Source: Oscillospiraceae bacterium (GTDB lineage Bacteria; Bacillota; Clostridia; Oscillospirales; Ruminococcaceae). Taken from it: a stretch of DNA of 56,895 bases. The stretch lies in the NCBI GenBank assembly GCA_017545185.1, contig JAFWQJ010000065.1, positions 1 to 56,895 of the forward strand, read 5' to 3'. The translations under genes and the position numbers were made by a program. A model generated the notes under the pieces. The model had not been told where the DNA came from. It saw only the letters and a list, made by a program, of their open reading frames with translations, and searched no databases. Below, in pieces: positions 5,802 through 30,028 of this stretch. Within the stretch, counting starts at the first letter, position 1. The number at the start of each line of letters is the position of its first letter.

Positions 5802-7238
5802 ATGAACAAGCAATCTGCTGTGATTGCCGCAGCGCTGATGTGTCTCTGCATGACCGGCTGCTCCGGCAGGGATCAGCTGACCAAACAGAAGGACGACATT
5901 CCGACGATCCCGGCTGAAACGGGTCAGATCAGAATGACGGAGGAAACCGCTGCCGGACAGACTGAAGCCGTCACGGCACTGACCGGCACAGGCATCCGGC
6001 ATACGGAAACTTCATTCGTTACAAGCCGGACCGTCACCGTCACGGAAGCAGCAAAGACTGCGGCACCGGCGCAGACCAAAGAAGAAAATGCCGGTGCTCC
6101 TGCAGCCCGTGAAACCAATTCGCTGTACGGGAAATGGGAAACGGTCTCCTTCGCGAAAAACACCGGCGAGAGCGTTGCCTATGATCTTGCTGATTCTGTG
6201 CACAGAAGCTACTATGTCGGACTTGATCTGCGCAGTTCGGGGCAGTCCGAGCTGACCGTCGGGACGGAAACATTTCCGGCAACGATCGCTGTGAACGGGA
6301 ATACGCTGTCGGTCTGGAAGGCAAACAACAATTCCGGCAGCATGGATTTTCAGTTCAGCGATGACAAGACCCGCATGACAGCCGTGCTGATGGACGGACG
6401 AATCACTGCGACCCTGAATCCGGTCAGAAACGGTTTTTCGATCACGCCTTATCTGAACAGCGCAAAGGAGCCTGCGTGTCCTTTTTCCGCCTCCGACCTG
6501 ACCGGAGAATGGGCAATGCCCGGCACATTCGGAACAAGGAACAATTCCATACATGTCAGTGCAGACGGCTCTGTCATACTGCGCTATGCTTCCGGCGGAA
6601 CACGCCGCGGCAAAATACAGATCGCGCGGGAAGATCAGGCTGACGGTACATCCGGCTATCTGTATGCGCTTTGCGATGACACCGGAACTTCGTGGATGAG
6701 ATTTCCGTGCACTGCTGTCCCCGCCGATCATCTGTATTCAGAACAGGACGGAGCGGAATATGTCCGCCTCAGCCTTGCAGATATCGCCGTCGGAAAGATG
6801 AACGACCTGACCTTCCTGATGAGCTGCATGAACGGCGGCGGCGGTGATCTGGAAACCGACCGCGAAAACACCGTCACGGCCGGCGATCAGAATGCTGTCT
6901 ATGCGCTTGTCACGGATGAGCGTTTTTCGATCAACAGCCTCGGGAAGGCTGCTTTGGAGCGTCTGCTGGAGGAAACAACATCCGGTGACGAAAGAAAGCA
7001 CTGGTCGGATATGCTCGATTACAGCTTCCTTGAACAGGACGGACAGACCTATGTCCGCATCAATGAGGGGCACGGCCATTATATCTTTGATACCGGGCAC
7101 GGTGTCACAGTCAAAGACCAGACGGAAACCTCGTTTACGGCAGCGACCAATGCATCGAATCAGATGTACGGCCGGGGCAGTGCGCATTTTGTCTTTGACG
7201 GCACCAACTGGACGATCGACAGCTATGAATTCAACTGA
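5802..7238 (+). CDS. Secreted lipoprotein with two GxW modules
   Basis: 478 aa. The signal peptide ends in a lipobox (CLCMTGC, Cys20), so it is lipid-anchored outside the membrane. Residues 21-105 are a Thr/Ala/Glu-rich low-complexity linker. Two modules follow, starting at LYGKWETVS (about 107) and LTGEWAMPG (about 230). They resemble the repeats of the LPQTG protein at 2976-5180 in spacing and in the initial G-x-W motif. The C-terminal quarter (about 335-478) looks like a separate alpha/beta domain with an aromatic-rich end. The start has the ribosome site AAAGGGG at good spacing. It has its own promoter and a strong terminator. The shared module and adjacency suggest function together with the LPQTG/sortase pair, but the biochemical role is unknown. 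Confidence 0.88.
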   Translation: MNKQSAVIAAALMCLCMTGCSGRDQLTKQKDDIPTIPAETGQIRMTEETAAGQTEAVTALTGTGIRHTETSFVTSRTVTVTEAAKTAAPAQTKEENAGAPAARETNSLYGKWETVSFAKNTGESVAYDLADSVHRSYYVGLDLRSSGQSELTVGTETFPATIAVNGNTLSVWKANNNSGSMDFQFSDDKTRMTAVLMDGRITATLNPVRNGFSITPYLNSAKEPACPFSASDLTGEWAMPGTFGTRNNSIHVSADGSVILRYASGGTRRGKIQIAREDQADGTSGYLYALCDDTGTSWMRFPCTAVPADHLYSEQDGAEYVRLSLADIAVGKMNDLTFLMSCMNGGGGDLETDRENTVTAGDQNAVYALVTDERFSINSLGKAALERLLEETTSGDERKHWSDMLDYSFLEQDGQTYVRINEGHGHYIFDTGHGVTVKDQTETSFTAATNASNQMYGRGSAHFVFDGTNWTIDSYEFN

Positions 7239-10151: not shown

Positions 10152-10276
10152 CGGGATTTCGTCGCGGATGAAATGCACACCGCGCCGGCATTTCGTCACG
10201 GTTTGGAAACTCAGGTGCCCAAAACGGGATTTCATCGCCGTATACGGCATTTCATCTCAATATCCGGCATTTCGTC
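10152..10276 (+). repeat. Phased 12-bp motif array A (candidate activator sites)
   Basis: Copies of CGGSATTTCRTC lie at 10152-10163, 10186-10197, 10225-10236, 10245-10256 and 10265-10276. The last three are spaced exactly 20 bp apart. An inverted half-copy (GATGAAATGC, 10168-10177) makes a near-palindrome with the first. The array ends 8 bp before the -35 box at 10285. The same motif and geometry recur at 28088-28188. Likely a tandem binding site for a direct-repeat-binding regulator such as a LytTR protein (inference). Confidence 0.75.
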
Positions 10277-10284
10277 GTATTATA

Positions 10285-10313
10285 TTGCTTTTCTTGAAGT
10301 ATCGTGCTATAAT
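10285..10313 (+). promoter_or_regulatory. Promoter downstream of array A
   Basis: TTGCTT (10285-10290), 17-bp spacer, TATAAT (10308-10313). Leaves a leader of about 150 nt before the ATG at 10470. The weak -35 fits an activated promoter. Confidence 0.7.
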
Positions 10314-10469: not shown

Positions 10470-11933
10470 ATGAAACGCATCAAATCTATGGTTTGTATCT
10501 CAACCGCACTGTTTACACTCTCTGCAGTCCCGTTTTCTGCCGGCATCACAGCACAGGCTGCAACGGGTACAGGCACCACATCAGACGGCCTCAGGTATTC
10601 CTATGATACTTCCGCAAACAAAGCGGTCATCACCGGATACACAGGCTCTGCTTCGGCCGTGACGATCCCTTCGACCCTTGCAAACTGCTCTGTCAAAGAG
10701 ATCGGTAAAAAAGCGTTCTTTTATAAGAATGTGACATCGGTCTCGCTCCCGAACACTGTTTCAACGATCGGGGAAAACGCATTTTACGGCTCTCATCTGA
10801 CGGGCATCACCCTGCCCTCCGGCGTGACCGCAGTCGATCAGTATGCCTTTGCATTCTGCAGCGACCTGCAAACGGTCACGATCAGCGGTGCGGCAGAACT
10901 GGATCTCGCTTCTTTCTGGAATTGTCCGTCTTTGACCAGTGTGCAGGTTTCCGCAAATTCCAAAACCAAAAGAGACCAGATCGCATTTATGGAATGCCCG
11001 AACCTGACACAGGTCAACGGCATTGCACCTTATACGACCCAGACTGACAGCAGCGGTCATACGTATCCCGTCCTGAATCCTGCGGCAGAGACTGCCATCC
11101 GCAATCACTTCAGCCGCAGCACCGACGTCAAGTTCGTCAATGATTTCTGCTCGCTCTACTGCGCATATATCGTCGATACGGAAACAGACCCGTGGATGAC
11201 GCAGACGCTGAAAGCCCGGCAGCTGCACGACTGGCTTGTCCGGCACTGTGAATACGAGGATAAGAACGGCATCGAGCAAAACAGTGACACGGAGAATTTC
11301 GTCTCATCCGCAGTCTTTCTCAGCTGTGCCATGAATATCCGCGGAAACGGCATCGGTGAAGCTGTCTGCGACGGTTATTCCAAGGCCTACAATATGCTGC
11401 TGGCACAGGCCGGCATGGAATGCTACCGCATCGGAACAGCCACGCATTCATGGAACATCGCCAAGATCGACAATCAGTTCTATGAAATTGATGTCACGCA
11501 TGATGACCCGATCACCTATAACAGCAGCGGCGTCGTTGTCCCTGACAACACCTTCGGAAACATCTATTCAACGCGGTATACGCACTTCCTCAAAAGCCAT
11601 GCGGATATGAAGGTCGCACACAAGAACAAATACAATAATCCGGAGCTGTGTGATTACAACATTGATCATCATCCGCTGCTCGGCGAAGCCCCCGACAACA
11701 TCACAGCCCTGATGGCACAATGCACGGTGTCCCTGACCGACACAAACCAGGACGGAATGCTCGACAATGACTTCGACATGGACGGTACGGCGTTCGGCAC
11801 GGATTACTGGGAGGATATCCTTGCATATTCGATGCTTTGCGGCCGTTACTTCGGATATGATGACGATCTGAACGATCACATGCCCGAGGCGCTCTATATC
11901 ATGCATCAGGAGCATCACGGCGTCTGGGGATAA
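10470..11933 (+). CDS. Secreted leucine-rich (BspA-like) transglutaminase-like protein
   Basis: 487 aa. Signal peptide 1-31 (cut after AQA). LRR_5/BspA-type repeats at about 70-190 (KEIGKKAFFYKNVTSVSLPN, IGENAFYGSHLTGITLPS). Transglutaminase-like domain at about 205-390 with the complete triad: Cys300 in EAVCDGYSKA, His326 in THSWN and Asp341 in IDVTHDD. The end carries one Ca-loop-like stretch (DTNQDGMLDNDFDMDG) followed by a helix. It resembles half of a dockerin, but a second loop is not evident. Such fusions are seen in secreted Clostridia proteins; whether they cross-link proteins or act as peptidases is not known. AGGAGG ribosome site. Transcription starts from a promoter placed behind the phased motif array, so it is probably regulated. 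Confidence 0.88.
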   Translation: MKRIKSMVCISTALFTLSAVPFSAGITAQAATGTGTTSDGLRYSYDTSANKAVITGYTGSASAVTIPSTLANCSVKEIGKKAFFYKNVTSVSLPNTVSTIGENAFYGSHLTGITLPSGVTAVDQYAFAFCSDLQTVTISGAAELDLASFWNCPSLTSVQVSANSKTKRDQIAFMECPNLTQVNGIAPYTTQTDSSGHTYPVLNPAAETAIRNHFSRSTDVKFVNDFCSLYCAYIVDTETDPWMTQTLKARQLHDWLVRHCEYEDKNGIEQNSDTENFVSSAVFLSCAMNIRGNGIGEAVCDGYSKAYNMLLAQAGMECYRIGTATHSWNIAKIDNQFYEIDVTHDDPITYNSSGVVVPDNTFGNIYSTRYTHFLKSHADMKVAHKNKYNNPELCDYNIDHHPLLGEAPDNITALMAQCTVSLTDTNQDGMLDNDFDMDGTAFGTDYWEDILAYSMLCGRYFGYDDDLNDHMPEALYIMHQEHHGVWG

Positions 11934-16133: not shown

Positions 16134-16834
16134 CAGAACGCCTCCCTGCTGACAAATGAAAACAGTGCCTCCCGCAGCGCAGTCTCTTTGCTGCGTGCGA
16201 CCGGCAGTCTCGTTCCGTCCTCCATGACCACTTCCCGGCCGGAAAGCTGCTGTATTTTGGACAGTGCAGCAAGATAGCAGCGGTGGATGCGGAAAAACCC
16301 CTCCGGTGTCAGACGCTGCTCAAAATCGCGCATATTGCCGCGCACGGAATAGCTGTCCGCATCCGTGCTGATGACCACGTTCTGGTTCTGGGATTCGATG
16401 AACAGGATCTCTGCCAGCCGCAGCCGGGTTTCTCCTTCGTCCGTCCGGATCCAGAGCGTTTTTTCGTTTTCCATTTTTTGCAGCACATGGTCGATCACCG
16501 CTTTGATCTTCTGTTCGTCGGCGGGCTTGGTCAGATACCGCAGCGCGTTGACCTCATAACCCTGGATCGCATATTCGATATGCCCGGTGAGAAAGACGAT
16601 GCTGACCGTATCGCTGAGCGCACGCAGCTCCTCCGCCAGCGTGATGCCGTCCATTTCCGGCATTTCAATATCCAGAAACACCAGATCGTAAGCGCGGAGC
16701 CGGAACTGCTTCAGCAGCGCCGCGCCGCTTGAAAAGCTGTCCACCAGCATGTCAAGGCTTTTATACAGCCGGTCGGTAATGCGCCGGAAATCGCTGAGAA
16801 ACTGCTGTTCGTCGTCACAGATTGCTATTCGCAT
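16133..16834 (-). CDS. LytTR-family response regulator
   Basis: 233 aa. The ATG at 16834 has a GGAGG ribosome site. Earlier in-frame codons would run through the promoter. Receiver domain 1-118 with acidic pocket DD (residues 7-8), phosphoacceptor Asp55 (LVFLDIEMPEMDG) and the conserved Lys in LTKPA. LytTR DNA-binding domain about 130-228 (ILFIESQNQNVVISTD, then FFRIHRCYLAALSKI, matching the family's F-x-R-x-H-R/K-S/C-x-L/Y signature). LytTR proteins bind pairs of roughly 9-bp direct repeats about 21 bp apart (established knowledge). A 21-bp-spaced repeat lies just upstream, and 20-21-bp phased arrays stand before two surface-protein promoters in the window. Confidence 0.94.
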   Translation of the reverse strand: MRIAICDDEQQFLSDFRRITDRLYKSLDMLVDSFSSGAALLKQFRLRAYDLVFLDIEMPEMDGITLAEELRALSDTVSIVFLTGHIEYAIQGYEVNALRYLTKPADEQKIKAVIDHVLQKMENEKTLWIRTDEGETRLRLAEILFIESQNQNVVISTDADSYSVRGNMRDFEQRLTPEGFFRIHRCYLAALSKIQQLSGREVVMEDGTRLPVARSKETALREALFSFVSREAF

Positions 16835-16866: not shown

Positions 16867-16895
16867 AGTATACCATATACGATGCAAAAATGCAA
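16867..16895 (-). promoter_or_regulatory. Promoter of the LytTR regulator/kinase operon
   Basis: On the - strand: TTGCAT (16895-16890), 17-bp spacer, TATACT (16872-16867). 33 bp before the regulator ATG. Confidence 0.75.
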
Positions 16896-16909
16896 GTGCG
16901 GCATCTGCA

Positions 16910-16940
16910 GTTTACGACAAAATCCGCACCGTTCACGACA
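16910..16940. promoter_or_regulatory. 21-bp-spaced direct repeat, candidate LytTR autoregulatory site
   Basis: GTTTACGACA (16910-16919) and GTTCACGACA (16931-16940) are direct repeats with a 21-bp period. Read leftward they are TGTCGTAAAC and TGTCGTGAAC. They sit 14 bp upstream of the -35 of the regulator operon and also just upstream of the rightward promoter at 16969. The spacing is that of LytTR sites; binding is inferred. Confidence 0.6.
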
Positions 16941-25196: not shown

Positions 25197-27983
25197 TTAC
25201 TGCTTATCCGCGTTGATCCCGAGCAACTGCTCCCATGTGACCTTCTTTCCCGCAACGGTATTTTCCGTGTAGTATTTGAGAAGCAGCTGTGCGTCCTCGA
25301 CGCTGATCACGCCGTTTTCGTCCACATCTCCGGCCTTGATCTGCACCGCAGTCAGCCCCATTTCATTGCCCGCGATCCGCTCGGTATAGGCCTTCAGCAC
25401 GGTCTGTGCATCGTCCACGCTGACGTTATCGTCGCCGTTCACATCGCCCCGGATATACAGCAACTCGAACGGATAGCCGTATTTTTCCGCATGAGCCTGC
25501 GCGGTGCTGCCGCCGTATCCGATGACAGCCGCCCCCGCAGGGATCGTTTTCTCCGAATCCGCGATCCCGCAGTCACGCGCCTGAATACAGATCTCTTTCA
25601 GGCCCGCGCAGCCGGAGACCGTGTTTGCACCGATCTCCGTGACCGTTTTCGGAAGGACGATCTTCGTCACGGCGGATTTATCGAATGCCTTGTCCGGAAC
25701 GGCCGTGACGCCCTCGCGGAATATCACTTCCAGTTCCTCGCCGGTCGTGCGGAAAGCCGTCGCTGCAATTGTCTCAATATTTTTGCCGATCGAAACGGTT
25801 TTCAGCAGCGGGCAGTCGGCGAATGCGCCCTGCTCCGGATAGGCGCCGCACTGGATCTCCCTGACGGAATCCGGCAGCGTAACGGATTCCAGCTGACTGC
25901 AGCGCCGGAAGCATTCCGACGGGATGACCGCCGCGCCTTCTGCGACCGTCACGGTTTTCAGCGAACCGCAGGACGCAAACGCCTCTGCGCCGAAGGAACA
26001 GCCGGGGAGCTCCGCAGCGGTCAGACCGGTGCCTGCAAATGCCCGTCTGCCGATCTCTTTCACCGAAGCCGGGAAATTGCATTCTTTCAATGACGAACAG
26101 CCGTCAAATGCAGAGGCATTGACAGCGGTCAGCGTCTCCGGCAGGACGACCTTTGCAAGCTCCGTGCGCGATTTGAACGCGCCCTCCGGAACAGCCGTGA
26201 CGCCCTCGCGGAAGGTCACCTCCAGAATGCCCTCGCCGGTCGTGCGGAAAGCGGTCGCCGCGATCGCCTCAATATTCTTGCCGAGCGATACGGTTTTCAG
26301 CAGCGGGCAGTCGGCGAATGCGCCCTGCTCCGAATAGGCGCCGCAAAGGATCTCTTTGACGGAATCCGGCAGCGTGACGGATTCCAGCTGACTGCAGCGC
26401 CGGAAGCATTCCGACGGGATGACCTCCGCGCCTTCTGCGACCGTCACGGTTTTCAGCGAACCGCAGGACGCGAACGCCTCTGCGCCAAAGGAACAGCCGG
26501 GGAGCTCCGCAGCGGTCAGACCGGTGCCTGCAAAAGCCCGTCTGCCGATTTCCTTCACCGAAGCCGGGAAATTGCAATCTGTCAGCGATGAGCAGCCGTC
26601 AAATGCAGAAGCATTGACTGCGGTCAGCGTCTCCGGCAGGACGACCTTCGCAAGCTCGGTGCGCGATTTGAACGCACTCTCCGGAACAGCCGTCACGCCC
26701 TCGCGGAAGGTCACCTCCAGAATGCCCTCGCCGGTCGTGCGGAAGGCCGTCGATGCGATCGCCCCGATATTTTTGCCGATCGAAACGGTTTTCAGCAGCG
26801 GACAGTCGGCGAATGCGCCCTGATCCGAATAGCCGCCGCACCGGATCTCTTTGACGGAATCCGGCAGCGTGACAGATTCCAGCCCCTTGCAGTGCCGGAA
26901 GCATTCCGACGGGATGATCTCCGCGCCTTCTGCGACCGTCACGGTTTTCAGCGAACTGCAGGACACGAACGCCTCTGCGCCGAAGGAACAGCCGGGCAGC
27001 GCCGCAGCGGTCAGACCGGACCCGGCAAAGCCGCGCCTGCCGATCTCCTTCAGCAAAGCCGGAAAATCACATTCTGTCAGCGACGTACAGCCTTCAAATG
27101 CGGAAGCATTGACAGCAGTCAGCGTCTCCGGCAGAATGACCTTTGCAAGCTCGGTGCGCAATTTGAACGCGCCCTCCGGAACAGCGGTCACGCCCTCGCG
27201 GAAGGTCACCTCCAGAATACCGTCACCGGTCGTGCGGAAGGCCGTTGACGCGATCGCCCCGATATTTTTGCCGATCGAAACGGTTTTCAGCAGCGGACAG
27301 TCGGCAAATGCGCCCTGATCCGAATACGCGCCGCACCGGATCTCTTTGACGGAATCCGGCAGCGTGACAGATTCCAGCACCTTGCAGTGCCGGAAGCATT
27401 CCGACGGGATGCTCTCTGTCCCCTCCCCGACCGTCACGGTTTTCAGCGATGCGCAGCCCGAAAACGCCTCATTTCCGAGCGTGCAGCCCGGCAGCGTGAG
27501 TGCGGTCAGACCGCTGTTTTTGAACGCGCCGCCGCCGACCGATTCCAGCGACTTCGGCAGCGTGACCGTCTGCAGCGCAGTACAGCCGAGGAACGCATTG
27601 TTCCCGATCGCGGTGACGGTCTCCGGCAGCGTCACTTCGGCGAGTGCCGTGCATCCGCTGAACAATCCGGCGCCGACCGCCGTGATGACGTTCTTGCTGT
27701 CTGTATTTTTGAGGACGGCCTTCTGAATTTTCCCTGTATGGGAGCCGAACGGCTTGCCGGAGACGTCAGCCATGTCGCCGGAGCCGGTGACCGTCAGCGT
27801 CCCGTCCCCGTCCAGCGTCCATGTCAGCTTCTCCCCGAGCGTCCCCTCAGCGGCAGGGGTCTGTTCGTCCGCCGCGGCATTCACGGCTGCCGTGAACGGT
27901 ACCGCGGATGCCGGAAGCGCCGATGCTGCCGATGCCAGCATGAGAAACGCGGTCAGAACAGATGTATAACGGATCAGTTTCAT
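25197..27983 (-). CDS. Secreted leucine-rich (BspA-like) protein with dockerin
   Basis: 928 aa. ATG 27983 has AAAGGAG; an in-frame upstream ATG would read through the promoter. Signal peptide about 1-23. The N-terminal module (LTWTLDGDGTLTVTGSGDM) is typical of BspA-like proteins. A long LRR_5 solenoid follows, in which four 165-residue supra-repeats are recognisable by their GCSFGAEAF or GCTLGNEAF starts and LKTVSIGKNIGAIASTAFRT cores. The end (about 862-928) is a type I dockerin with loops DVNGDDNVSVDDAQTVLKAY and DVDENGVISVEDAQLLLKYY. The preceding YGGSTAQAHAEKYGYPFEL is the usual cap of these solenoids. Likely a binding or adhesion protein displayed on a cohesin; ligand unknown. Divergent from the C1 protease at 28319. 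Confidence 0.92.
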   Translation of the reverse strand: MKLIRYTSVLTAFLMLASAASALPASAVPFTAAVNAAADEQTPAAEGTLGEKLTWTLDGDGTLTVTGSGDMADVSGKPFGSHTGKIQKAVLKNTDSKNVITAVGAGLFSGCTALAEVTLPETVTAIGNNAFLGCTALQTVTLPKSLESVGGGAFKNSGLTALTLPGCTLGNEAFSGCASLKTVTVGEGTESIPSECFRHCKVLESVTLPDSVKEIRCGAYSDQGAFADCPLLKTVSIGKNIGAIASTAFRTTGDGILEVTFREGVTAVPEGAFKLRTELAKVILPETLTAVNASAFEGCTSLTECDFPALLKEIGRRGFAGSGLTAAALPGCSFGAEAFVSCSSLKTVTVAEGAEIIPSECFRHCKGLESVTLPDSVKEIRCGGYSDQGAFADCPLLKTVSIGKNIGAIASTAFRTTGEGILEVTFREGVTAVPESAFKSRTELAKVVLPETLTAVNASAFDGCSSLTDCNFPASVKEIGRRAFAGTGLTAAELPGCSFGAEAFASCGSLKTVTVAEGAEVIPSECFRRCSQLESVTLPDSVKEILCGAYSEQGAFADCPLLKTVSLGKNIEAIAATAFRTTGEGILEVTFREGVTAVPEGAFKSRTELAKVVLPETLTAVNASAFDGCSSLKECNFPASVKEIGRRAFAGTGLTAAELPGCSFGAEAFASCGSLKTVTVAEGAAVIPSECFRRCSQLESVTLPDSVREIQCGAYPEQGAFADCPLLKTVSIGKNIETIAATAFRTTGEELEVIFREGVTAVPDKAFDKSAVTKIVLPKTVTEIGANTVSGCAGLKEICIQARDCGIADSEKTIPAGAAVIGYGGSTAQAHAEKYGYPFELLYIRGDVNGDDNVSVDDAQTVLKAYTERIAGNEMGLTAVQIKAGDVDENGVISVEDAQLLLKYYTENTVAGKKVTWEQLLGINADKQ
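25645..27480. repeat. Tandem 495-bp repeats inside the dockerin leucine-rich gene
   Basis: The landmark CGGTTTTCAGCAGCGG recurs at 25796, 26291, 26786 and 27281, exactly 495 bp apart. The intervening DNA is highly similar, least so in the outer units. The boundaries given are approximate. In protein terms each unit is 165 residues. Confidence 0.9.
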
Positions 27984-28034
27984 ATATTCTCCTTTTGCAA
28001 AAAGCGGTGCGCCCGAAGGCGCGCAGATATTTAT

Positions 28035-28063
28035 ATTATAGCACAGAATGCGGCCGATTGCAA
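28035..28063 (-). promoter_or_regulatory. Promoter of the dockerin leucine-rich gene
   Basis: On the - strand: TTGCAA (28063-28058), 17-bp spacer, TATAAT (28040-28035). Confidence 0.78.
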
Positions 28064-28087
28064 GATTTTTCAACATGAAGGCAGCGC

Positions 28088-28188
28088 CGTGCATTTCGTC
28101 GCGGATGAAATGCACAGACCGTTCATCCGGAAAAACGGGATTTCGTCCTCAAAAAGCGGGATTACGTCGCGAAATACGGCATTCTGTC
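28088..28188 (+). repeat. Phased 12-bp motif array B (candidate activator sites)
   Basis: Copies related to CGGSATTTCRTC end at 28100, 28127 (partial, CCGTTCATC), 28147, 28168 and 28188. The last four are spaced 20, 21 and 20 bp. The first copy forms a near-perfect inverted repeat with GATGAAATGCAC (28104-28115). A 24-bp run at 28093-28116 is identical to 10156-10179 in array A. The array ends 8 bp before the -35 at 28197, exactly as in array A. Confidence 0.75.
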
Positions 28189-28196
28189 GGATTCTA

Positions 28197-28225
28197 TTGA
28201 CTTGTCGGTTTTCTTATGTTATCAT
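28197..28225 (+). promoter_or_regulatory. Promoter downstream of array B
   Basis: TTGACT (28197-28202), 17-bp spacer, TATCAT (28220-28225), driving the C1 protease gene at 28319. Confidence 0.75.
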
Positions 28226-28318: not shown

Positions 28319-30028
28319 ATGAAACAAATACGCAAATTCACCGCCGCAGTCATGTCATGTATCCTCTGCAGCACCGTTATGCCGTTCTCCGTCTTTGCCG
28401 AGGAACCGGCCGGCACCGCTGCAGAGCTGCCTGCAAAGTATGACCCGCGGACAGAGGAACCGGAGATCCTGACCGCCGTCAAGAATCAGACCTCTCCGAT
28501 CTGCTGGTCGTATTCCTCGCTTGGCTGCATTGAGTCAAACCTCATCAAAAAGGGCTATGCCGACAACACGCTCAATCTGTCGGAAGCGCACCTGATCTGG
28601 TTCTCCCGCGGAAAGGACTCGCCGGACGACCCTGACGACCCGCGCCACGGCGGCGGCAAGAATCTCGGCAAAGAAGCTTACAGGACCGGCAGCTATACGA
28701 TCAATACCATTGCGGCGCTGGCGGCATGGCAGGGCATCGTCACGGACAGCGATGCGCTCACGCTCACGCAGACCCCGGTCATGGCCGAATCCGAGCGTTA
28801 CCGTTCGGCTGCACATCTGCAGAACGCGGATTATTACAAAGCGTCTGAAAAAGACGGGATCAAAGCAAGCATCCTGAAAAACGGCCCGATGATCCTCGGC
28901 TATTTCTGCGCAGAGAACTATCCGCTCTCCGCAAAAGCCGGTTACTACAACGCAGATACCACAATGGAAGCGGCACGGAGAAGTGATCTGGCCGGCGGCT
29001 GGCATTCCGTCATGGTCGTCGGCTGGGACGATACCTATTCCAAGGATAATTTCACGGTCCCGGCACCCGGCGACGGCGCATGGATCATCAAGAACAGCTA
29101 CGGCAATTTCCAGCGTTCCGAGAACGGATATTTCTATATGAGCTATTATGAGCCGACGATCGACGAGGTCGTATCCGTTGACATGGAACCGGTCACGAAT
29201 TACGGTGCCGTCCGCAGCTATGACTGCTCCGATCTGTCAACGACATACTTTGCGGAGAAGAACTGCGGCCTGATGCTCGCGAATGTCTTTGAAGCGAAGG
29301 AGCCGGAAACGGTCACTGCCGTCGGATTCTTCTCAGCCGAGCAGATCCCGGAATGCAAGATCTGCGTATACAAACTGGATCCGGATGCGGAAAACCCGGA
29401 GGACGGCACGCCTGCGATCGAAATGACCGCAGACATCGCGCACAAGGGCTACCATACGATCAAGCTGCCGGAGAGCTTCAAAGCCGAGGCCGGACAGAAA
29501 TATTCCGTGACCGTCAGAATGCCGGTCGAGACCATTCAGCCGGCAATCCTGGATACCGGCTGTTATAAAGCAGGCGTATCGTATTACAGATTCTATACGG
29601 CGGAAGAAGAAAAGCCGTGGAAGGACTGCTTCCGTGCAGGGCGCGGCGACTGCACCGTTCATGTGTATACCGAATACACCGGCGAGGAAAAAGACCCGTT
29701 CATCAAAAACGCGGACGGCACGCTGATCGACGCCTATCCGGAGCCGCTGATGCGGGAGACGCTGAGAGAACTTGACACGAATCATGACGGATATTTCTCG
29801 CGGGAGGAAAGCGCTGCTTCCTACACAGGCGTGATCTATGATATCAACCGGGACGGCCTGTCCGATTCCAGAGACCTGACGCTCCTGAAGCGTGCGATCC
29901 TCGGCCTGCAGGAATCCGGCTCCGGCTATGACTGGAAAGAGGCAGATATCGACATCAACTGCGTGTATGAATATAACGATGTACACATTCTGAAATGCTG
30001 GACGCTCCAGAAGTCCACGAAAGAATGA
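28319..30028 (+). CDS. Secreted C1 papain-like cysteine protease with dockerin (paralogue)
   Basis: 569 aa. Signal peptide 1-27 (ends SVFA). C1A peptidase with Cys62 in TSPICWSYSSLG, His229 in GGWHSVMVVGW and Asn259 in IIKNSYGN. There is almost no propeptide between the signal peptide and the catalytic domain (LPAKYDPRTEEPE starts at about 40). A lectin-like beta-sandwich follows (about 290-410, TNYGAVRSYDCSD). The end is a dockerin (about 480-560) with loops DTNHDGYFSREES and DINRDGLSDSRDLTLLKRAI; the second half is followed by a third Asp-rich stretch (DIDINCVYEYNDVHIL). The order matches the enzyme at 8344-10143. Ribosome site AAAGGA. It sits behind phased array B and therefore probably shares control with the transglutaminase-like gene at 10470. 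Confidence 0.93.
   Translation: MKQIRKFTAAVMSCILCSTVMPFSVFAEEPAGTAAELPAKYDPRTEEPEILTAVKNQTSPICWSYSSLGCIESNLIKKGYADNTLNLSEAHLIWFSRGKDSPDDPDDPRHGGGKNLGKEAYRTGSYTINTIAALAAWQGIVTDSDALTLTQTPVMAESERYRSAAHLQNADYYKASEKDGIKASILKNGPMILGYFCAENYPLSAKAGYYNADTTMEAARRSDLAGGWHSVMVVGWDDTYSKDNFTVPAPGDGAWIIKNSYGNFQRSENGYFYMSYYEPTIDEVVSVDMEPVTNYGAVRSYDCSDLSTTYFAEKNCGLMLANVFEAKEPETVTAVGFFSAEQIPECKICVYKLDPDAENPEDGTPAIEMTADIAHKGYHTIKLPESFKAEAGQKYSVTVRMPVETIQPAILDTGCYKAGVSYYRFYTAEEEKPWKDCFRAGRGDCTVHVYTEYTGEEKDPFIKNADGTLIDAYPEPLMRETLRELDTNHDGYFSREESAASYTGVIYDINRDGLSDSRDLTLLKRAILGLQESGSGYDWKEADIDINCVYEYNDVHILKCWTLQKSTKE

Follow-up and report, generated by a model that had tools for sequence, protein, structure and literature searches.

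Short direct repeats run up to a promoter ahead of a gene for a leucine-rich-repeat (LRR) protein in an Oscillospiraceae genome, and this locus raises the question of whether the repeats form an operator and, if so, which protein reads it. The window analysed is an entire contig (C65, 56,895 nucleotides) of a 3.6-Mb genome (G000) in 94 contigs. Its array A consists of five exact copies of CGGSATTTCRTC, the final three of which are spaced exactly 20 bp apart and followed, after 8 bp, by TTGCTT-17-TATAAT (Table 1); every element of this first description was confirmed. The whole window holds six exact copies, five in array A and one in array B (at 28136), versus 0.08 expected by shuffling, and the largest count in any of 100 shuffles of the window was 1.

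Table 1. Coordinates in the window of arrays A and B, of their target genes and of the response regulator locus.
Feature	Position	Strand	Remark
Array A box 1, distal, CGGGATTTCGTC	10152..10163	+	starts 133 bp before -35
Array A inverted box GTGCATTTCATC	10167..10178	-	CGGSATTTCRTC with 2 mismatches; head-to-head with box 1, 3-bp gap
Array A box 2, CGGCATTTCGTC	10186..10197	+	-99 from -35
Array A degenerate box slot GGAAACTCAGGT	10205..10216	+	by eye; 19 bp past box 2 start, 20 bp ahead of box 3; GGCAACTCAGG / GGCAATTCAGG similar in other arrays
Array A box 3	10225..10236	+	-60 from -35
Array A box 4	10245..10256	+	-40 from -35
Array A box 5	10265..10276	+	-20 from -35
Array A -35 TTGCTT	10285..10290	+	
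Array A -10 TATAAT	10308..10313	+	spacer 17
Target gene A: secreted-looking LRR_5 protein	10470..11933	+	weak transglutaminase-related match
LytTR response regulator (candidate of the earlier note)	16136..16834	-	LytTR and receiver domains
Response regulator promoter TTGCAT (16895-16890), TATACT (16872-16867)	16895..16867	-	by eye
Response regulator promoter repeat TGTCGTGAAC ... TGTCGTAAAC (TGTCGYRARC)	16910..16940	-	21-bp pitch
Array B inverted box pair GTGCATTTCGTC-GCG-GATGAAATGCAC	28089..28115		
Array B boxes 28136, 28157, 28177	28136..28188	+	-61, -40, -20 from -35
Array B promoter TTGACT-17-TATCAT	28197..28225	+	
Target gene B: C1 peptidase, lectin-like domain, dockerin	28319..30028	+	dockerin match just under Pfam cut-off

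The gene behind array A had been called a leucine-rich transglutaminase. The leucine-rich part of that name stands, as the Pfam matches are LRR repeats only; the transglutaminase part is weak, since the NCBIfam match to a transglutaminase-related lipoprotein (residues 247-390) falls far below its cut-off. Transglut_core is present in an LRR target of a related genome (G250). The second array in the window, array B, is looser than array A. In both, as in several other arrays, a head-to-head pair of boxes with a 3-bp gap lies upstream of the direct boxes (10152-10178 and 28089-28115). The window also contains the 12-mer CCGGATTCCGTC four times on the reverse strand at a 495-bp period (25863-27359), inside a 972-aa open reading frame (ORF; 25197-28115), where it probably marks long in-frame tandem repeats.

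Genome-wide, the exact motif was found 32 times, versus 8 times for a control in which the pattern was read backwards; by our own count, 22 of the 32 fall within seven array loci and the other 10 stand alone. A loose two-box pattern with three mismatches allowed gave 77 matches versus 67 for the control, which is background level. The genome has eight array promoters: those of A and B, those on contigs C4, C8 and C42, a divergent pair at C50:75.4-75.7 kb, and one at C50:94.9 kb. Their alignment (A1) places three boxes, the -35 and the -10 at near-constant distances. Seven of the eight precede secreted-looking proteins (signal peptides were assessed by eye), including dockerin peptidases, a thermolysin and the LRR protein. 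C1 peptidases with lectin-like and dockerin parts lie behind array B and the C50:94.9 kb array, and the C8 array (L065, locus about 6295-6870) precedes an M4 thermolysin with a CBM2 domain whose ORF starts 577 nt past the -10. The targets at C4, C42 and the left side of the C50 pair are three secreted-looking proteins without a Pfam match; judged by eye, the C42 protein ends in a dockerin-like part, and a Dockerin_1 match is present in its G250 relative. The right array of the C50 pair precedes the gene of a regulator itself, in which a LacI-type sensor is joined to a LytTR domain.

For comparison across relatives, a sequence-only profile (R1) was built from the eight arrays and run over 81 genomes. 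Matches at E<=0.1 occur in 67 of the 81 and constitute background; matches at E<1e-9 are termed strong. Promoter geometry was then read from 26 target promoters, 25 of which were parsed (five genomes). In this parse, which favoured -35s that put a box near -20, a box starts at -20 in 24 of the 25, immediately upstream of the -35 as at LytTR sites; boxes also stand at -40/-41 in 24, at -60/-61 in 24 and at -97 to -100 in 15, and the -35 begins with TTGC in 19. The set excluded a promoter before a LytTR ORF at G250:C84 (R1 E=2e-5), G253, L176 and L178, and G268_C19 was left unparsed. An unbiased parse took 35 promoters, among them the regulator's own and those of distant orthologues; 34 were parsed and 33 of these had a box (G250:C84 excluded, G268_C19 unparsed, no box in L176). 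Here the last box stands at -20 in 23 of the 33, and of 105 distances between neighbouring forward boxes 49 are 20 bp and 15 are 21 bp. This pitch leaves 10-11 bp between the GGCATTTCAT cores of the boxes, which fits LytTR operators, described as tandem repeats of 9-11 bp separated by spacers of 10-13 bp (PMC11347149, PMC4847170).

The regulator's own promoters (n = 6) are built differently, with a box at -20 in none of the six and TTGACA in all six. We read the target promoters as strictly phased where a weak -35 needs help, and the combination of consensus TTGACA with boxes out of the -20 register suggests a different, perhaps damping, autoregulation of the regulator gene.

Two arrays of G250 were observed in other surroundings. 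At L189 (G250:C19, from 2407 on), an array-B-like promoter is followed, 282 bp past the -10, by a series of 36-bp repeats (GTTTGAGAGTAGTGTAATTTTATAGAGTAGTCATAC), at least eight in number and with a 66-bp period, which look like a CRISPR array. At L190 (G250:C76, about 2124), a complete box array and promoter are followed about 167 bp downstream by a hairpin and a run of T's, and no ORF of at least 110 aa starts within 540 bp of the array; it may serve a short non-coding transcript or be a relic.

An intergenic or mobile repeat family without a regulatory role might also leave isolated exact matches, inverted pairs and an array with no sizeable ORF nearby, such as that on G250:C76. The 10 isolated matches, however, are about as many as the 8 of the control, and the arrays are phased to the promoter in one orientation. 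Because they are phased to the -35, we reject this reading, which appears extremely improbable. The scan of the genome and its relatives, in which box positions are fixed to the -35, instead bears out the original view of a set of promoter-phased arrays rather than scattered repeats.

The genome encodes three LytTR proteins, and among its strong R1 matches only those on C50 lie at a LytTR gene (C50:75712-77439). This gene stands directly behind its own array and encodes 576 aa, comprising a LacI-type Peripla_BP sensor, an unassigned middle region and a C-terminal LytTR domain. The PF04397 match scores 77 bits (cut-off 22.6) and that to Peripla_BP_3 82.7 bits, and no Response_reg match was found in Pfam. 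By its predicted domains, the protein is a one-component LytTR regulator in which a sensor is fused and a receiver is absent. An AlphaFold model (pLDDT 55, pTM 0.32) was too poor to use. Four paralogues examined in the same genome, 25-33% identical over the N-terminal and middle regions, share the LacI-type sensor part and carry GGDEF and/or AraC helix-turn-helix outputs instead of LytTR: GGDEF plus AraC in L203 and L204 (in the latter with the GGDEF match under the cut-off), GGDEF in L205 and AraC in L206. Given these paralogues with other outputs, the LytTR output of the C50 protein looks like a domain swap. Among the titles and abstract starts listed in literature searches, none describes a LacI-type sensor joined to LytTR or LytTR control in Ruminococcus.

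The link between array and regulator gene recurs at all seven C50 orthologue loci that were found, each of which has an R1 match within 300 bp upstream; in six of the seven one match points at the gene, and at L178 the divergent match alone passes E<=0.1. These loci come from metagenome-assembled genomes labelled Ruminococcus, Oscillospiraceae and, in one case, Clostridiales, and L176 is cut by a contig end. Five of them (L172, L173, L174, L175 and L177) are probably the same as G250, G268, G265, G259 and G249, so that only L176 and L178 add new species. Toward the regulator gene, the R1 score drops with the distance of the relative (E=2e-15 in G000, 2e-13 in G265, 4e-8 in G268, 7e-7 in G250, 0.008 in G249 and 0.005 in G259). 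The gene-facing promoters of G249 and G259 are weak in R1, and there the divergent side or inspection by eye carries the case. In G259 (L175), with a 60% identical orthologue, the box has drifted to GGCATCTTAGTC, and on the divergent side four box-like units (GGCATCTTAGTC twice, GCACCTCTTGTC and TGACCTGTTGTC) lead in exact 20-bp steps to TTGACA-17-TAAAAT. The 11-mer GCATCTTAGTC has two matches in G259, both at this site, one isolated match in G252 and none in the other seven of the nine genomes searched. The regulator gene adjoins polA in G000, G265 and G250, whereas polA lies on a different contig in G268 and G249; regulator gene and array thus stay together where the neighbours differ.

Arrays and regulator also coincide between genomes. 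Strong arrays occur in six of the 81, all of one genus (G000, G265, G250, G268, G249 and G253). Among 30 genomes of the genus, full-length C50 orthologues were found in G000, G265 (100% identical), G250 (85%), G268 (83%), G249 (74%) and G259 (60%). The system appears narrow, as the matches listed for 247 genomes of the family include no full-length orthologue outside the genome itself. Strong arrays are present in five of the six genus genomes with an orthologue versus one of the 24 without (p=2.4e-4; p=5.1e-5 when G253 is removed), and four of the five genomes with the window's response regulator have arrays (p=0.0026; p=0.0010 without G253). These counts are not independent, because the five genomes with trusted arrays are closely related (in the four relatives polA is 82-97% identical to that of G000). 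One genome, G259, has a C50 orthologue and no strong array. G253 was considered as a counter-example, having arrays without an orthologue, and set aside: its array lies on a 4-kb contig (C189, L187) that matches the window at 97.8% identity, although polA of this genome reaches no more than 74%, which makes the contig a probable stray or binning contaminant.

The reader named in the earlier note was the window's own two-component LytTR response regulator, which would act with its GHKL kinase. It carries both LytTR and receiver domains, lies 6 kb from array A and has orthologues in four of the five genomes with trusted strong arrays (G000, G265, G250 and G268). Yet arrays are also present in G249, a 99% complete genome in which the response regulator has no match at E<=1e-15, so arrays are not confined to genomes with this regulator, and G272 encodes a 57% identical orthologue and has no strong array (best R1 E=0.010). 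G265 has two LytTR proteins, and G249 has three, of which two are encoded by open frames of 155 and 148 aa; the only one common to these two array-bearing genomes is the C50 protein. Nor does the response regulator's own promoter carry a strong array (best R1 E=0.026). It has a different, though partly similar, repeat, TGTCGYRARC at 21-bp pitch, which recurs in the promoters of three orthologues (one base off in one) and makes 16867-16940 a likely autoregulatory site. The proposed assignment is accordingly not upheld, and we consider it quite unlikely that this protein is the reader of the arrays. The third LytTR protein of the genome (C77) was also considered; it is not needed in G265, which encodes just two LytTR proteins, one orthologous to the C50 protein and one to the window regulator.

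A TTGTCG-like element is common to the TGTCGYRARC repeat and some proximal array boxes, and cross-talk of the response regulator on the arrays is possible. Both proteins might then read them, the fusion protein setting the regulon and the response regulator cross-binding some boxes, a reading to which the partial resemblance of the repeats and the location of arrays A and B on the response regulator's contig lend some weight; the persistence of arrays in G249, where that regulator has no match at E<=1e-15, makes it rather unlikely.

That the boxes are of LytTR type is suggested by their sequence as well as by their position. The motif had been thought to be without earlier description, but its core, GGCATTTCAT, is the direct repeat bound by E. 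coli YpdB at yhjX (PMC4847170). We located this direct repeat in the upstream region of K-12 yhjX, with copies 21 bp apart, and the match to the core of the array box is an exact 10-mer. The LytTR-type interpretation of the array itself was upheld, as direct repeats at two-turn pitch just before a -35 are also described in PMC6193735, PMC11347149 and PMC4847170. Alternatively, a regulator of another family might bind the boxes, the resemblance being convergent; LytTR sites have no consensus in common, according to PMC4847170, which leaves room for this. Against it stand the exact YpdB match, a pitch and placement like those of LytTR sites, and the association with the promoter of a LytTR gene, which make it very unlikely. 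Identity of LytTR domains was tried as a tie-breaker between the two candidate readers and discarded, because the YpdB domain is 27% identical to that of the C50 protein and 27% to that of the window regulator.

Array A is therefore probably a multi-box operator for a LytTR factor, most likely the protein encoded at C50:75712-77439. Array anatomy, the genome-wide set, promoter phasing and the link to the regulator gene are evident in the DNA itself, and from them we infer binding, a ligand and activation. The C50 protein would take a small ligand, a sugar or similar, upon which its LytTR domains would cooperatively occupy boxes spaced by two helical turns. At the box that starts at -20, a LytTR unit would come to lie against RNA polymerase and activate promoters whose -35 is poor (TTGC..). 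Dockerin peptidases, the thermolysin-CBM2 protein, the LRR protein and other exported proteins would be switched on in this way, and the regulator's own promoter would be subject to the different, perhaps damping, control noted above.

A broader reading, plausible though less likely than not, is that in rumen and gut relatives of Ruminococcus a LytTR output was acquired by a LacI-type sugar sensor, which became the master switch for a set of secreted dockerin peptidases and adhesin-like proteins. It would act via exceptionally long operators (as many as six direct boxes and a distal head-to-head pair), possibly with graded or looped control, and box sequence and regulator would change in concert at a constant 20-bp pitch. 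The LytTR box motif itself is already known, and a box sequence proven in E. coli recurs here in a distant lineage. For bacteria represented here by metagenome-assembled genomes alone, the analysis offers a testable assignment of regulator, operator and regulon that takes in genes for secreted peptidases and dockerin proteins. If it is true, the LacI-type sensor joins the known input domains of LytTR proteins.

Known LytTR systems share single features with this one. YpdB (now PyrR) is likewise a LytTR-domain activator at a GGCATTTCAT direct repeat; unlike the arrays, yhjX has two boxes, and YpdB serves a pyruvate-responsive kinase as its response regulator. For AgrA, PMC4227749 describes binding to two direct repeats, the promoter-proximal ones being centred near -60. 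The LytTR regulatory systems termed LRS (HdrRM, BrsRM) also have direct repeats near the -35 of their own operon, at a distance given in PMC6193735 as 4-11 bp in S. mutans and mostly 10 bp elsewhere. Their LytTR protein is paired with a membrane inhibitor, whereas the C50 protein has a LacI-type sensor and the gene directly downstream of it in G000 encodes DNA polymerase I (polA), not an inhibitor.

A pair of ORFs resembling an LRS pair was observed in G250, where a weak array-like promoter (L197, G250:C84:92484-92564, reverse strand; R1 E=2e-5) is followed by a 146-aa LytTR ORF and a small ORF.

RcoM and CoxC are one-component LytTR proteins (PMC11347149). Like the C50 protein, they join a sensor to LytTR, and their operators, like the arrays, have three direct repeats spaced by two helical turns. 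They differ in being CO sensors and in their TTCNNGCA-like repeats, and CoxC represses by overlapping the -35.
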